IMG/VR virus record: IMGVR_UViG_3300025655_000372
Span: 1-20,660 of that record
DNA: 20,660 bases
Direction: 5' to 3' (one strand)
Source of the DNA: a virus
Shown here: in pieces, positions 1 through 20,565 of the stretch
Layout: each line of letters begins with the position of its first letter
Numbering within the stretch: position 1 is the stretch's first letter
The notes under the pieces: model-generated
Told to the model about the DNA's origin: nothing
Seen by the model: the letters and a program-made list of their open reading frames with translations, nothing else
The model's database searches: none
Position numbers and translations under genes: made by a program

Positions 1-175
1 TTGTATATTTCTGAATTAGCTTGTCTAGTTCCACTATTTCAGAATTACTTAAATCTGCCCCCGGATCGGTTAGTTCAATGAATCTCTTCATCTCTGGTCC
101 CCCACCCTTAAACTCTAATATCATTTCCTCTCTGATACACTCTTTGATAATTGTCTTTAGTTCTGATTTTTTCAT
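1..175 (-). CDS. Unknown protein, N-terminal part (runs off window)
   Basis: An ATG at 175 opens a frame that stays open to the window edge, giving about 58 residues. It begins MKKSELKTIIKECIREEM, a charged helical start often seen in small phage proteins near head genes. It begins just after the stop of the preceding gene (179-181). A purine-rich GGAAAG lies about 6 bases upstream of the ATG. Its place after terminase, portal and two unknown genes would suit a head-assembly protein such as a prohead core or scaffold component, but that is positional inference only. The visible part has no diagnostic domain. Confidence 0.7.
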   Translation of the reverse strand, partial: MKKSELKTIIKECIREEMILEFKGGGPEMKRFIELTDPGADLSNSEIVELDKLIQKYT

Positions 176-10277: not shown

Positions 10278-10510
10278 CACGCAACCTCATTCTGGAACCG
10301 AATCAGTTCCTTGATTCCAGTGATCTTTCCCCGCACCGCGGCCGCGTGGCTGGTCATGCCATAGATGCCACAGAACCGAACGATCTTGGTTGCGGGGTAA
10401 TACGAACCAATATAACCATGCTCGCGGGTGAAAAATCGGATCCGGTAACCGTGTCGATCCTGATCGACACTATAAACTTGACCGTCAACCTTGACATCGA
10501 TTCCACGCAT
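10277..10510 (-). CDS. Unknown small beta-rich protein
   Basis: 77 residues from ATG 10510, which is nine bases from GGAAGG; the earlier ATG at 10519 directly abuts that site and so is less likely. The first half has alternating strands (GIDVKVDGQVYSVDQDRHGYRIRFF), the second half a Gly/Tyr-rich stretch and a helical end. It is the first gene of the transcript starting near 10568. No family recognised. Confidence 0.7.
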   Translation of the reverse strand: MRGIDVKVDGQVYSVDQDRHGYRIRFFTREHGYIGSYYPATKIVRFCGIYGMTSHAAAVRGKITGIKELIRFQNEVA

Positions 10511-11162: not shown

Positions 11163-12131
11163 TTATCGCTTGATCATGGTCATTTCAGCCATGGTCTGCC
11201 AGTGGAACGGGTTGGTACGAACGAAGTTAGCAAGCTGGATGATAGTCCGGATCGAAAGACTCCGCATACGATCAGCGTTGGCACCCATCCAGTTGATGAT
11301 GTCATCGGTGTGGTTTTCAGCCAACCCAAGGTCCGAAAGAATGTTGGTGTTCTTGATGACCTGCTTGATGCGAATCATAATTTCCCGCGTGCTATGGATA
11401 CCAAGGTCAAGATACACGCAACGGTTAATCAGAGCCGCAAGGTGGGGAGCCAGCTTGGTCCCGCGCTCAATCTGCTGGTCAAAGTTCATGTTGGAGATGA
11501 AAATAACCGTACCCTCAAACTCAAAGCTATTCGGGATATCATTCTCACGCAGATACTTGCTGGCACTCATCCAAGAAATGGTGCGAGTCTGACCAGTGTC
11601 CAGAGCACCCTTGAGAAGATTGAGGGCCTCTTGATCGGCAAAAATGCTATCAAGGTCGTCAAGAACCAGAACATCCCCAACATTGCGATGGTCATAAAGG
11701 GTGAGATACAGACCGATGGCAGTAGCCGAACCAGTCAGTTGTGAAAAGTTCAGACCACGCTTGGCGGCCGCTTCGCGGAGCTTGGCGTCAACGGTAAAAG
11801 TCTTTCCAATGCCCGGCGCACCCGAAAGAACTACGGACTTGATGGACCGATGAATCACACCATCGATAATCATCTCCATAACATCAAACCGCTGCTCAAT
11901 GTCGCGAGAAAGTTCATCATCGGACTTTTTGGGAACATTGGACTCGCCAACAATATCAAAATCCGAAGCGTTGATATGGAGGCGCGTCTTTTTGCCGTTG
12001 CGCAGAACCCAAATACAACCGTCTCGCTTGTCAGAGACGCCGGCCTTAAACGGAGCGGCAAGCTCAAACACACCAGAAATGTCGGTCTTGTAATGAAGGG
12101 CACTCTTGATGTTCACTTGAGCGGTAGTCAT
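11163..12131 (-). CDS. AAA+ ATPase
   Basis: 322 residues; ATG 12131 with AGGAG eleven bases upstream. An N-terminal region of about 70 residues precedes the ATPase core: Walker A GAPGIGKT at 104-111, Walker B VLVLDDLDS at 154-162, a sensor-1 Asn in ISNMNF (N214), a candidate arginine finger (R237, in INRC) and a sensor-2-like Arg (R295). This is a complete AAA+ module of the kind found in ring-shaped remodelling or DNA-loading machines. The substrate is unknown; helicase-loader, clamp-loader-like or chaperone roles are all open. It has its own promoter at 12183-12211 and uses GC-richer codons than the structural genes. No partner protein can be named. Confidence 0.9.
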   Translation of the reverse strand: MTTAQVNIKSALHYKTDISGVFELAAPFKAGVSDKRDGCIWVLRNGKKTRLHINASDFDIVGESNVPKKSDDELSRDIEQRFDVMEMIIDGVIHRSIKSVVLSGAPGIGKTFTVDAKLREAAAKRGLNFSQLTGSATAIGLYLTLYDHRNVGDVLVLDDLDSIFADQEALNLLKGALDTGQTRTISWMSASKYLRENDIPNSFEFEGTVIFISNMNFDQQIERGTKLAPHLAALINRCVYLDLGIHSTREIMIRIKQVIKNTNILSDLGLAENHTDDIINWMGANADRMRSLSIRTIIQLANFVRTNPFHWQTMAEMTMIKR

Positions 12132-13261: not shown

Positions 13262-14137
13262 TTATCGTTTGGGGTATGGAAATGTCTTGTTTCTGCCCTC
13301 AAATTCCCGCCTCAATCGCTTGGTTTCCCCTTTATCTCTACCCAAAACATAAGCATATTTTCCCTTATTTGGAAACTCATGATATTTTGCTTCGGCTTGA
13401 ACCTTCTTTGAATGTTCCCGCAACAATCTCTCAATATAATCGGGAACATTTTCCCACAACATGGTTGTGCTTGATGTCCAATTTTTCTGCCACTCTATAC
13501 CCAAGTCTTTTGCGTATTTTCTATATGCCGAACGCTGGCGAAAAAATCTATCGGACACCAACTTGCCACTATATGGATTGATGTATCTCCTAGCCGTTCC
13601 AGAATTTTGACCAAGGTAATAGAAATTACACGCTTGGTAAATCGTTCCAATCTCATTAGCTGTTGGATCCGAGTATGCCGTAAAGAGTCTATAGTCGGTA
13701 TTTTCAACCATCCACTTGATTGACCACATAAGAAGATTGGATGCGAGATTTTTTGGTGACCAAGAAATACAAGCTCCGCGACTAATGAGCCTTTCCAAAT
13801 TTGGTGTATCGTCTCCAAGCAACTTTGAAAAGCTATTCGGGAGATTCATAAGAATAACCCCAGCGAGTTGACCCTTATGATATGTCGCGAACCAATGAGT
13901 TGTGTATTGAGATAGATTTCCCAACCACTCATGTTTTTCGATGAATTTCTTCAATAAATCGCGTTCTTCTTTCGACTCCACCACCCTATGCTCGAAATCA
14001 TTTACGTTCAATGTAGAACAATATTCCTTGGAAAATCCAGCGTTTTTCAAGTCTTCCTCAAGGTTCCTAACCCTTATGTCATACTGCCAACAATGATCGC
14101 TCTTGTAGTCATTCATCCGCTTCAGAATGTCGGTCAT
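13262..14137 (-). CDS. Mom-like DNA-modification protein (GNAT fold)
   Basis: 291 residues; ATG 14137 six bases after GGGGGG and overlapping the previous stop (ATGA). Three blocks resemble phage Mu Mom and related phage proteins: a strand AGVILMNLP (92-100), then LERLISRGACISWSPKNLAS (114-133) leading into a helix, and AYSDPTANEIGTIYQACNFY (154-173) with the Gly and YQA typical of the family. The C-terminal part (about 259-291) has the Tyr-rich, basic segment ending PYPKR often seen in Mom-like proteins. Mom converts adenine in phage DNA to N6-carbamoylmethyl-adenine, shielding it from restriction. Family membership is likely; the actual modification is not shown. No Com-like translational activator is recognisable beside it. 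Confidence 0.85.
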   Translation of the reverse strand: MTDILKRMNDYKSDHCWQYDIRVRNLEEDLKNAGFSKEYCSTLNVNDFEHRVVESKEERDLLKKFIEKHEWLGNLSQYTTHWFATYHKGQLAGVILMNLPNSFSKLLGDDTPNLERLISRGACISWSPKNLASNLLMWSIKWMVENTDYRLFTAYSDPTANEIGTIYQACNFYYLGQNSGTARRYINPYSGKLVSDRFFRQRSAYRKYAKDLGIEWQKNWTSSTTMLWENVPDYIERLLREHSKKVQAEAKYHEFPNKGKYAYVLGRDKGETKRLRREFEGRNKTFPYPKR

Positions 14138-14445
14138 TTATCGCCCCCCACAAAAAACCTATCCGATGGCTCAGACCAATCGCTTTGTCTATTGAACCTA
14201 TCAATAGCAGCAACGCGAACTATCAAAATCTCGCCAACGGAATACTTGAATGTCATCTTTGTATCACTCTCAAAGGTTCCTCTTAGTTCTGTCCAAGTAT
14301 CCCCATCAAACACTTCGACAATGTAAGAAGTGGGAGACTCCCCCGAATCCGGGGGAGTCCATTCCACTACCAATCTCTTGGTGGCATTATCGCATCCACC
14401 AAGTATCAGAACCAAAACAACTGCTAAAGCTATTAGCTTACGCAT
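14134..14445 (-). CDS. Phage-encoded FnIII lipoprotein
   Basis: 103 residues. An N-terminal signal (RK, then 13 hydrophobic residues) ends in a lipobox LGGC with the lipidated Cys at 18. Asp at the next position (C-D) would, by the E. coli rule, keep it in the inner membrane. Residues about 25-98 form one fibronectin type III domain: VVEWTPPDSG, SYIVEVFDGDTW, and the closing VRVAAIDRFNRQSDWSEPS. The partner gene directly before it encodes a paralogous exported FnIII protein. Lipoproteins in phages can block superinfection or serve lysis (Rz1); Rz1 is smaller and Pro-rich, so this does not look like it. Role unknown. Confidence 0.8.
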   Translation of the reverse strand: MRKLIALAVVLVLILGGCDNATKRLVVEWTPPDSGESPTSYIVEVFDGDTWTELRGTFESDTKMTFKYSVGEILIVRVAAIDRFNRQSDWSEPSDRFFVGGDK

Positions 14446-14448
14446 ATA

Positions 14449-14799
14449 TTATTCTTCCGAAATGACAGGCTTTCCGGGTGCCGTTGGAATACCAAGGTCG
14501 GGCATATACTCATCCGATGGGGCAGACCATGGTCCTTGGCGACCCATACCATCAACACCAGCGACACGAACAACGTAGATGTTCATGTATGTCAATTCAA
14601 GTGTTGTAGTTGTTGTTTGAATGTTGTCTTGCTCCGTCACAAAAGCACCGCCGTTTGTTGAAACCTGTAAGATATAATGATCCACTGGCGAACCGTCGGT
14701 TGGTGCTGTCCAAGATGCTCTAACTGTTGCTGTAGTCTGCGCGAACGCAACGCTTGTCAAGGTTAATAGCATTATTGCCGCGAACAAAATCTTTCTCAT
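14449..14799 (-). CDS. Secreted FnIII-domain protein
   Basis: 116 residues, ATG 14799 after AGGAGA. A typical signal peptide (RKILFAAIMLLTLTSVAFA, cleaved after about residue 20, AFA-QT) precedes one FnIII domain: VRASWTAPTDGSPVDHYILQ, a central strand, and VRVAGVDGMGRQGPWSAPS. A Pro/Gly-rich tail follows. There is no lipobox, so it should be periplasmic or exported. It is clearly related to the adjacent lipoprotein: the order of VRVA, D-x-x-x-R-Q, W-S-x-P-S motifs is the same. The two genes are three bases apart, suggesting a duplicated and then differently anchored pair. Function unknown. Confidence 0.8.
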   Translation of the reverse strand: MRKILFAAIMLLTLTSVAFAQTTATVRASWTAPTDGSPVDHYILQVSTNGGAFVTEQDNIQTTTTTLELTYMNIYVVRVAGVDGMGRQGPWSAPSDEYMPDLGIPTAPGKPVISEE

Positions 14800-14814: not shown

Positions 14815-15189
14815 TTAAAATTCTTGGTTTGGATAATCCTTGCTAATCTCTTGTAGCAGGAAATATAATTCTATTGTAGCATCGCTTACAAACTGACTTT
14901 GGTTGTCGGTTTCTTTTTGGTGTATCTCTATTTCATCATCTACAATCGCTTCGCTCACTTTTTGATCCACCCTCAACTCAAAGGCAGCGCGAAGTTTTTT
15001 AAGTTCACCGAATATCTTTGCGTCCGAAGATTCATCGCTAAGATTCATCGCTCTATAGTAAAGTCTTGACGCTTTAATGAAGGTCGAAACCATAAAGCGT
15101 ATAACTTCACCCTTGTCGCGATTGTCTAATCGATCAACCAACGGTCGCAAATCTGTATCGTAAAACTTATTTAGTTCGTACTTGCCCAT
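14815..15189 (-). CDS. Unknown helical protein
   Basis: 124 residues, ATG 15189 with GGAG five bases upstream. Mostly helical and charged, with Leu/Arg-rich stretches (LRPLVDRLDNRDKGEVI) and an acidic Gln-rich middle around residues 80-95. No signal peptide, Cys or catalytic motif. It is the first gene after a hairpin/promoter region and is followed by the FnIII pair, which may share its transcript. Confidence 0.7.
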   Translation of the reverse strand: MGKYELNKFYDTDLRPLVDRLDNRDKGEVIRFMVSTFIKASRLYYRAMNLSDESSDAKIFGELKKLRAAFELRVDQKVSEAIVDDEIEIHQKETDNQSQFVSDATIELYFLLQEISKDYPNQEF

Positions 15190-15236
15190 GATGACTCCAT
15201 TCTACACTATGACGCCAAAGATGTAAAGGGGATTTT

Positions 15237-15265
15237 ATTATAAGGGGGTTTGCTGTCCTTAGCAA
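15237..15265 (-). promoter_or_regulatory. Candidate promoter overlapping the hairpin
   Basis: TTGCTA (15260-15265) and TATAAT (15237-15242) are 17 bases apart on the minus strand. The -35 lies in the loop-side arm of the hairpin at 15244-15271 and the -10 is just beyond it. Predicted start near 15230 leaves a 40-base leader with the GGAG site of the gene at 15189. Confidence 0.45.
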
Positions 15266-15271
15266 ACCCCC
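15244..15271 (-). terminator. Perfect 11-bp hairpin between transcription units
   Basis: GGGGGTTTGCT (15244-15254) pairs with AGCAAACCCCC (15261-15271) across a 6-base loop. On the minus strand it is followed by TTATAATAAAATCC, a weak T-tract; on the plus strand by AACTTATTTTG. It lies between the zinc-knuckle gene and the 124-aa gene and best fits a terminator for the genes to its right. Confidence 0.7.
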
Positions 15272-18151: not shown

Positions 18152-20443
18152 CTATGCTCCGCTATACTTGATTGTGATATGGAACTCATCAACAGCAGTT
18201 CCACCGGTTGCCGTTGTTTCCAACCAAACAATAGTTCCAATGGTTGATAATGTTGTATCCCCACTGAAATAATCTATCGTTGTGTATCCTGTAGATTGAC
18301 CGCTGAATACTTCGGTTCCAGATGTTCTGGACGTTCCCGTCATAACGCGCCAATCAACAGTTGGCGTTGTCCCAACCATTATCGTCATAGCACTCTCAAT
18401 GTATATTTCGTTTGTCACGATGAACAATGTAGAATCTTCGTCCGCTCTTGTTTCCCGGAAAGTTGCAGACTTTGAATCCCACACAAAATATTCATCGTGA
18501 GTATGTGCTGTGTTGGCAACCATACTGGAATCTATACCTTGATAGGTTGTCGCGGCGATAGTCGCGGCAGATAGAACATCGTGAGTTATTCCTGTGATCT
18601 GTGTTTCAACATCATTCAAGCTAAGGTGTATGTTTGTGTTTGAAATGTGCGTGTCTATTTGCGCGTGTGTATTTGTTCCAACGTTCTGTATGTTGTCGTG
18701 GACAATGCTCGCTTCTGTGAAGTGTGTCGTTGGATCTCCGGTGTGAGACTCAAAATAGGTTCTCTCTGCATAATCGCCAAGATCGGTTATATCCGACTCC
18801 GTATGAGTATGTCCAGTGTTTGTTATAACACTGAAATCGTGAGTATGTGATGTATTAGCAACCATACTGAAATCTATACCTTGGTATGTTGTTGCAGTTA
18901 TGGTTGTCGCAATTATAGATCCCGCTGAAAACTCATCGTGAGTTGTTCCCGTAATCTGCGTCTCAACATCGTCCAAACTTAAGTGAATGGACGGATCCCC
19001 TGTGTGGGCAATATATTGTGTACCCGTAACGTAATCACCAAGATCGGTTATTTCTGATTCTGTGTGGGTGTGTCCAGTGTTGGTTATAACACTGAAATCA
19101 TGGGTGTGTGCTGTGTTTGAAACATCGGAAAAGTCTACACCTAGAACTGTGCCACCAGTAATTGTCGTTGCACTGATAACAGTGTGGACGTTTCCTGTTA
19201 GCCAATCATCTGCCCTTGCTTCTGTCAAGTATTGCAAGTGATCGTCATCACCAAGTCCATCCAATGAACTGTGATCATGAGTGTGTGCTGTGTTTGAAAC
19301 GCCACTGAAGTAAATCGGATTTGCGTCCCAATACTTGTTTGTATCATTCCAAACAAGGTATTTATTAGTTGTGTCTGGTGTCGTTCCATTTACGTCGGAT
19401 ATATTTTCCAATGTCATCGGCAGCACCGGCTTGAAATACACTTGACCGGATGTAGTTTCACCAACAGTAACAACACACATCCAAGCATTATGATTTGGAG
19501 CCATTGGTGGCGTATCTGTTAGCGATCCGTCCGCAGGAGTTGATGCGGACAGATAAAGACTTGTTCCTTCCGTCCAGTTTGTCGTATCCACATCATTGAC
19601 AAACCCCTGCAAGCAAACAAACCCATAATTATTTGCTGCAATGTCTTCCGTTGCCATACCAACCTGCATGGTTGGTGTGGACGCAGATGCAGTCGCGGGG
19701 GCAATGGTTGGGTGGTTGGCATGAGAACCGGTATTCATAACCACCGTTCCGTTGGTGATGGTAGAATCAGTATTGTTTCTCACCCGAACAAGAAACTCTT
19801 GCCCAATCTGTTGAATCACATTTCCGCCGGGCATTCCAACTTCAAGGCAACTTTGAGTTGAATTCCACCGTAGTTCGCCTTCCTCCACGACATAATCATA
19901 ATCAACGTCAAACTTTACCACGCCAGCATTGATTGTTTCTGCGGTCATCGTTGTTGCTGATATTACATCGTGATTATTTCCTGTTAGCCAAATTTCCGCT
20001 CTTGTGTCGTTGTGGTATTGGGTGTGGTCATCGTCTTCACGTCCAGACAATAACCCATGGTCTGTTACACCAACGGAGGAAGTTATGGCAGACCAAGTAT
20101 CGGTTGCTAACACATATGTTAAGACTTGTCCATCTAAAGCGGTAGATGTGTCAACGTCTGTCAATCCCGACAGTTCTGTTATACTTTCCGAACCTGTTGA
20201 TGCTGTGACAACCCACTTCCCGAGAAATGCGTCATAGGTGAGGAAATATCCATCCGAAACCCCCGCCACATCAACGTCTGTCATAGCCGAAAAATAAGAC
20301 GCACCACCAACAAGGTTTCCACCTGCCGTTGATCCGTCTCCAATATACAACAAGTGGGTGTCCGTTGTGTAAAGTGGTTCACCCTCAAGCGGTGTTATCG
20401 TTGTTCTCTCTGACTCAAGGCCCCTGCGTATTTTGAATGCCAT
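18152..20443 (-). CDS. Long tail fibre with repeats and HTH motifs
   Basis: About 763 residues. ATG 20443 overlaps the preceding stop (TAATG); a TTG at 20461 is less likely. The N-terminus, FKIRRGLESERTTITPLEGE followed by LLYIGDGSTAGG, resembles the major tropism determinant N-terminal domain used to attach fibres. A DDDHTQY-type linker repeat occurs around residues 135-150 and again near 395. A beta-rich body (about 220-360) includes VVMNTGSHANHP and similar blocks. The C-terminal part holds a tandem repeat with six HTH motifs (AHTHD, GHTHTE and SHTHD types), as in the metal-binding tip of T4 gp37. Receptor binding is the likely function. Confidence 0.85.
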   Translation of the reverse strand: MAFKIRRGLESERTTITPLEGEPLYTTDTHLLYIGDGSTAGGNLVGGASYFSAMTDVDVAGVSDGYFLTYDAFLGKWVVTASTGSESITELSGLTDVDTSTALDGQVLTYVLATDTWSAITSSVGVTDHGLLSGREDDDHTQYHNDTRAEIWLTGNNHDVISATTMTAETINAGVVKFDVDYDYVVEEGELRWNSTQSCLEVGMPGGNVIQQIGQEFLVRVRNNTDSTITNGTVVMNTGSHANHPTIAPATASASTPTMQVGMATEDIAANNYGFVCLQGFVNDVDTTNWTEGTSLYLSASTPADGSLTDTPPMAPNHNAWMCVVTVGETTSGQVYFKPVLPMTLENISDVNGTTPDTTNKYLVWNDTNKYWDANPIYFSGVSNTAHTHDHSSLDGLGDDDHLQYLTEARADDWLTGNVHTVISATTITGGTVLGVDFSDVSNTAHTHDFSVITNTGHTHTESEITDLGDYVTGTQYIAHTGDPSIHLSLDDVETQITGTTHDEFSAGSIIATTITATTYQGIDFSMVANTSHTHDFSVITNTGHTHTESDITDLGDYAERTYFESHTGDPTTHFTEASIVHDNIQNVGTNTHAQIDTHISNTNIHLSLNDVETQITGITHDVLSAATIAATTYQGIDSSMVANTAHTHDEYFVWDSKSATFRETRADEDSTLFIVTNEIYIESAMTIMVGTTPTVDWRVMTGTSRTSGTEVFSGQSTGYTTIDYFSGDTTLSTIGTIVWLETTATGGTAVDEFHITIKYSGA
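18497..19290 (-). repeat. Imperfect repeats in the tail fibre gene
   Basis: Two similar blocks about 261 bases apart (near 18777-18863 and 19038-19118) encode LGDY...GHTHTES...VITNTGHTHD-type segments. Another pair encodes LSL-DVETQITG-THD about 360 bases apart. Six HTH-encoding sites fall in this stretch. It is protein-repeat DNA within one gene, not a mobile or CRISPR array. Confidence 0.75.
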
Positions 20444-20565
20444 TAAACAAACACCCCACAATCTATTTCACAAGTTGGATCTGTAAATGTTCCACAATCA
20501 ATATCCACAGACGGAAGTGTATTTCGAAATACTGCGTTGTATGCTTTCATTAGGATGTGTGCCAT
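20443..20565 (-). CDS. Small Cys-containing protein before the fibre gene
   Basis: 40 residues from ATG 20565 to TAA at 20443-20445, which shares bases with the fibre start. It starts with a helical MAHILMKAYNAVFRN and ends with a short duplicated DIDCG...EIDCG motif holding three Cys (DCG, TC, DCG), so metal binding is possible. Overlap with the fibre start suggests translational coupling. Function unknown. Confidence 0.65.
   Translation of the reverse strand: MAHILMKAYNAVFRNTLPSVDIDCGTFTDPTCEIDCGVFV

Follow-up and report, generated by a model that had tools for sequence, protein, structure and literature searches.

In phage T5, the llp gene lies adjacent to and downstream of the receptor-binding gene, and its product is a small lipoprotein that acts from the periplasm (PMC9586334). 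Two-component spanins are likewise encoded by adjacent genes, one for a membrane-targeted protein and one for a lipoprotein (PMC6139136). The locus described here recalls both arrangements. It is part of a 20.66-kb viral fragment (the window, that is, the whole stretch of DNA analyzed) that carries terminase and portal genes of the T4 type and a long array of minus-strand genes, and it contains two adjacent genes, FnIII-A and FnIII-B, for small exported proteins with a single FnIII domain. FnIII-B shares with T5 Llp and with Cor of T1 and phi80 that it is a small phage lipoprotein, and both T5 llp and the FnIII pair are found downstream of receptor-binding or fiber genes. However, T5 llp directly adjoins the receptor-binding gene, whereas in the window the fiber gene lies approximately 3.4 kb upstream of the pair and is not its immediate neighbor. 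FnIII-B also differs from Llp and Cor in size and fold, has a secreted partner, and shows no convincing sequence relation to either. Its match to the Cor family phrog_1119 is weak (E = 0.036), confined to residues 1 to 52, and dominated by the signal, and no convincing Llp/Cor homology was found beyond it. The likeness is one of possible action, not of family membership.

FnIII-A (positions 14449 to 14799, minus strand) encodes a secreted protein of 116 amino acids and is preceded by a good ribosome-binding site, AAAGGAG; FnIII-B (14134 to 14445, minus strand) encodes a lipoprotein of 103 amino acids. The two are paralogs (E = 3.7e-11, 29 to 30% identity). Export signals were called by rules covering the n-region, the hydrophobic core, and the cleavage motif. 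FnIII-A has MRK, a hydrophobic core, and AFA^QT, which is read as a Sec signal peptide of residues 1 to 20 (14740 to 14799, minus strand), and FnIII-B has MRK, a hydrophobic core, and LGGC^D (14392 to 14445, minus strand). The latter fits the lipoprotein rule of n-region, hydrophobic core, and [LVI][ASTVIG][GAS]C, reading MRKLIALAVVLVLILGGC-D with the lipobox cysteine at residue 18, and lipidation is predicted. Upon shuffling of the whole proteins, a lipobox signal arose in 1 of 20,000 versions of FnIII-B and a signal-peptidase-I-type signal in 29 of 20,000 versions of FnIII-A. Among the listed minus-strand open reading frames of the window, only these two carry a full export signal. The first-pass annotation had proposed two adjacent exported paralogs, one secreted and one lipidated, and the two minus-strand reading frames, their paralogy, and the rule-based signals all bear this out.

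The FnIII domain of FnIII-A (14512 to 14742, minus strand) matches PF00041 with an E value of 4.2e-11, and against Pfam fn3 the protein scores 37.4 bits (E = 2.9e-9), above the curated cutoff of 25. The domain of FnIII-B (14170 to 14385, minus strand) stays below the curated cutoff both in its PF00041 match (E = 6.5e-5) and when the protein is searched alone (E = 0.0022, 18.6 bits); we accept it as an FnIII domain because of its paralogy to FnIII-A and its AF2 model. The AF2 models of both proteins are of modest confidence (pLDDT, 67 and 70) and show the FnIII strand order. FnIII-A ends in a tail, EYMPDLGIPTAPGKPVISEE (14452 to 14511, minus strand), which aligns as the counterpart of the bacterial tail PYTPDxGAPGQPGKPIIF and completes a full-length match of signal, FnIII domain, and tail to the profile of the Krumholzibacteriota-type family introduced below. 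FnIII-B lacks the tail, while its signal and domain match the same profile; by alignment, it is a member of the same family as FnIII-A.

The pair sits in a run of four closely packed minus-strand genes, which encode, in order of transcription, a 124-amino-acid protein without family match (14815 to 15189), FnIII-A, FnIII-B, and a Mom-like GNAT DNA-modification protein (13262 to 14137; PF25680, E = 5.9e-13; phrog_1384, E = 2.7e-17). The secreted form is thereby transcribed before the lipoprotein. Intergenic distances are 15 nt between the first gene and FnIII-A and 3 nt between FnIII-A and FnIII-B, and the stop codon of FnIII-B overlaps the start of the Mom-like gene by 4 nt; FnIII-B and the Mom-like gene presumably belong to a common transcription unit. 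Upstream of the run lies a gap of 160 nt, the largest locally, which contains a promoter-like TTTACA-N17-TAGAAT (15199 to 15227, minus strand; a pattern match only) ahead of the presumed operon and a G+C-rich hairpin of approximately 11 to 12 pairs (15244 to 15271; -20.9 kcal/mol, z score of -3.5 against shuffles). The hairpin is likely to mark the boundary of the FnIII/Mom transcription unit. The T4 late-promoter motif TATAAATA showed no clear excess over chance, PADLOC gave no match, and searches for Rfam families and tRNAs found none. The Mom-like protein has relatives encoded by 169 viral stretches, the best 80 of the 169 at 54 to 70% identity, and is 63% identical to its counterpart in Vibrio phage 501E54-1. 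Its conservation is far above that of the remaining genome, in which only portal and terminase otherwise had relatives in many fetched loci.

Libraries of known families returned only generic FnIII matches for the pair, and a tblastn search of 50,697 phage records with the two window proteins and two relatives found no match at an E value of 1 or below. Peptide-pattern searches with single proteins or a two-row alignment yielded one weak relative only (L003). A DNA pattern for WTAPTDG was dropped as a family probe, almost all of its matches being unrelated proteins. The family was found with a degenerate DNA pattern for the common motif RVAx[VI]DxxxRQxxW[ST]. Among 2.9 million viral contigs, the pattern matched five stretches, and among 84,980 genomes, a single one. 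The genome stretch and four of the viral ones code for small proteins that each have an export signal and a single FnIII domain, most of them also with a similar tail. Outside the window, this gives five phage copies on four other phage contigs: the secreted forms L214, L215, and L217, the lipoprotein L213, and, 10 nt upstream of the secreted gene on the L215 contig, a second FnIII protein, which is a lipoprotein (MKRYLILALLILGGC-T). The secreted copies are 43 to 58% identical to one another and to the bacterial copies. A lipobox is present in three of the seven phage copies, compared with none of the 50 bacterial copies checked. The first-pass annotation had also singled out the Asp at position +2 of the lipobox. 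This residue is indeed there in FnIII-B, but it should carry no weight as a trait, since L213 has Ser and the lipoprotein on the L215 contig has Thr at that position. A fold search also brought up a "lipoprotein" of Cellulophaga phage phi10:1; it is likewise small and a lipoprotein, but no relation to the family is evident, and it was set aside.

The genome match, L218, comes from a contig that bears the title "Candidatus Krumholzibacteriia bacterium," and we take the phylum name Krumholzibacteriota from the title of this MAG and from NCBI taxonomy names. When a profile built from the eight sequences was run on 80 genomes of this phylum (cutoff, E ≤ 1e-6), exported single-FnIII homologs of approximately 120 amino acids were found in 35, with best E values of 1e-38 and lower. 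The profile does not simply match any FnIII domain, since the many first-look candidates in the remaining genomes all fell short of the cutoff. One large group of genomes has a conserved copy of approximately 120 amino acids, often accompanied by one to three diverged exported copies per genome; the conserved copy reads ...AQTxVxVxYTWTAPTTGSPVDHYVVEHSVNGGAWTQIA...IRVAGVDAxxRQGPYSVASDPYTPDxGAPGQPGKPIIF. The family has no name in the libraries searched. Its members (e.g., L231, L237, and L218) agree with FnIII-A in length, Sec signal, single FnIII domain, the RVAGVDxxxRQGPWS motif, and the PDxGxPGxPGKP tail, at 53 to 58% identity. In contrast to the pair in the window, the 50 copies checked are not lipidated (the single regex match to a lipobox sits before the start codon), and the bacterial loci examined contain no tandem pairs of a secreted and a lipidated form; FnIII-B in turn differs from the bacterial protein in having no tail.

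The bacterial copies reside on ordinary contigs, and in 7 of 12 loci a convergent gene, the same one each time, adjoins them; it encodes an exported protein that is a candidate partner of the FnIII protein. This neighbor (L267:8386-9024, L271:6613-7248) is approximately 210 to 290 amino acids long and has no Pfam match; by eye, its N-terminal sequence resembles outer membrane barrels. In one examined locus, a trypsin/PDZ protease is encoded within a few genes of the FnIII copy.

FnIII-A is 53 to 58% identical to these bacterial proteins versus 29 to 30% to its own neighbor FnIII-B. In a tree, it nests with L218, L231, L233, and L234 (support, 97/85), while the L214 copy groups with a different bacterial subclade (84/77). 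In addition, when the DNA of the window and of the L214 and L217 contigs was compared with the 80 genomes, the top match each time was the FnIII gene. Nesting in separate bacterial clades, together with these top matches, favors capture by phages from their hosts on more than one occasion, and transfer from phage to host is unlikely, given that the bacterial genes are widely distributed and make up clades of their own. Judged by sequence, the secreted half of the pair is a captured host envelope protein, and phages have apparently captured the family more than once. This relation, which we regard as the main fact about the pair, had been overlooked in the first-pass annotation, whose recognition of adjacent exported paralogs otherwise stands. 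FnIII-B and the other lipidated copies form long branches in the tree; they may be old, or they may have separate origins, as FnIII-B and the lipoprotein on the L215 contig are only 26% identical.

Given that, apart from phages, the family was encountered among the exported proteins of Krumholzibacteriota, we infer, from this gene family alone, that this phylum hosts the T4-like phage of the window. A search for CRISPR spacers or prophages linking the two found none. A 27-nt stretch of the window (10334 to 10360) is 96% identical to many Krumholzibacteriota genomes, and in the three loci checked it falls in a gene encoding GGMTSHAAVVARGMG, which we take to be the active-site motif of PEP-utilizing/PPDK enzymes; we set this match aside as a coincidence in a gene carrying that motif.

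The L215 contig (G099, 114.8 kb) belongs to the nearest phage relative found with sequence across this region; its terminase and portal proteins are 60 and 59% identical to those of the window phage. The terminases of other viral relatives are approximately 42% identical or less, except in L004, a 4.6-kb fragment that does not extend to the locus. The window and G099 have a collinear order of fiber gene, FnIII pair, NrdC.10-like AAA gene, nucleotide-kinase-domain gene, terminase, and portal. In the window, the tail fiber-like protein (18152 to 20461, minus strand) has an Mtd_N domain and DDDHTQY repeats, and the NrdC.10-like AAA protein (11163 to 12131, minus strand; phrog_1250), encoded downstream of the pair, is 60% identical to that of G099. 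The G099 pair has the opposite order from that in the window, with the lipoprotein gene first. Across the 58 kb of G099 that were covered, no match to the Mom-like gene was found. That both phages have one secreted and one lipidated form in this collinear position argues that the pair is a retained two-gene unit, and their retention across core proteins only about 60% identical is good evidence that both forms are used.

What this unit does is a matter of weighing. We consider superinfection exclusion or receptor masking the most likely function by analogy with T5 Llp and because the pair lies downstream of the fiber genes in both phages. In this proposal, Krumholzibacteriota would supply a conserved exported protein whose gene phages capture, and the T4-like lineage would keep a soluble copy close to the host protein and a diverged one anchored through an N-terminal lipid. 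In the infected cell, both would reach the envelope, one free and the other fixed to a membrane, where they could bind in place of the host protein to its partner and so mask or alter a surface structure that serves as a phage receptor. Further phages might then be excluded, much as by small lipoproteins of the Llp/Cor type, which have other folds. For the whole of this, a two-gene unit of host envelope origin that masks or alters a receptor and excludes further phages, we see a chance somewhat short of even.

Alternatively, the phage might simply supply, or over-supply, a useful envelope protein of the host, for instance for surface integrity, adhesion, or charge, without excluding other phages. 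The host homology and conserved signal fit this, host genomes often carry two to four copies, and identities of 43 to 58% among secreted copies are expected if the activity is kept; yet it leaves the lipidated phage versions, lacking among the checked host copies, and their strong divergence unexplained, and we count it as a serious rival, though a doubtful one. The main functional rival is a role in lysis, as the L217 gene adjoins a lysozyme-like gene: downstream of it are genes for a coiled-coil/TM protein, the lysozyme-like protein (PF00959, E = 0.0013, below the cutoff), and small membrane proteins. A secreted/lipoprotein pair acting at the envelope as a spanin-like or lysis-timing unit would also match the layout of two-component spanins such as lambda Rz/Rz1 and T4 PseT.3/PseT.2, a membrane-targeted gene beside a lipoprotein gene (PMC6139136). 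However, FnIII-A has a signal of the cleavable type and lacks the uncleaved N-terminal anchor with coiled coil; a C-terminal TM segment is absent from both proteins; and there is no proline-rich or T4-type beta-alpha-beta o-spanin. Instead, both partners consist of a signal and a beta-sandwich and are paralogous to each other, their order is swapped in G099, L213 lies among replication genes, and the family has chromosomal members in bacteria. No lysis gene was recognized close to the pair in the window or in the G099 genes tested around its counterpart. We regard a lysis function as unlikely.

FnIII and Ig-like domains are common in phage tails and heads, and generic FnIII matches of the pair to tail fiber J, a head decoration protein, and BFVD tail fibers might suggest a virion or tail decoration protein. 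These matches are of low identity and partial overlap, and the shared PF00041 fold belongs there to large virion proteins, whereas FnIII-A and FnIII-B are free-standing exported domains. Phage virions assemble in the cytoplasm, but every close family member has an export signal. The first-pass annotation called the pair unusual for a phage and saw its claim at risk if homologs were clearly virion proteins; the homologs, from phages and Krumholzibacteriota, are instead small proteins with export signals, and a virion role is very improbable. Finally, the genes might be passengers, captured without a selected role. A PF00041 search that detected both FnIII genes in the window itself gave nothing above the cutoff in 97 other records sharing its terminase or Mom-like gene, most of them fragments, and only two subthreshold fragments in one record; by this absence, phages of this sort can probably do without the pair as a rule. 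Still, a like pair occupies the collinear locus in two phages whose core proteins are about 60% identical, its frames are open, and signals and tail have been kept, which makes a mere passenger very improbable.

Returning to exclusion, phage-encoded envelope proteins are of a known kind, and what is new here is the secreted and lipidated FnIII forms of a host family, with good support for the evolutionary part and a proposed function. Tentatively, and on balance improbably as a complete account, free and lipid-tethered copies of a host protein could disable or disguise a surface structure, a mimicry-type superinfection exclusion that to our knowledge has not been described before, with the gene serving as a host marker. 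In any case, two small phage genes that had been anonymous now belong to a defined family with chromosomal counterparts in bacteria, and the sequences hint at which uncultured phylum the T4-like lineage infects. If true, the family would also mark phages of Krumholzibacteriota. The pair allows a clean test of whether phages alter the host surface with free and tethered copies of a host protein. Through its phage relatives, attention is also drawn to a conserved host envelope component worth identifying.

Three minor observations concern other genes of these phages. A truncated open reading frame at the window edge (1 to 175, minus strand) has stretches of 16 to 18 amino acids that match five places in G099 (38.8 to 49.4 kb), which suggests a short motif repeated in that region. 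On the phage contig of L217, the FnIII gene comes directly after two others whose products also have export-like signals (118 and 871 amino acids, the longer without family match; L264:2678-5667), giving three exported proteins in a row. Lastly, the fibers of the window (18152 to 20461) and of G099 (L263:11619-12827) differ over most of their length and share a DHGxLxGRxDDDHTQYHNDTR block, with 43% identity over 96 amino acids.
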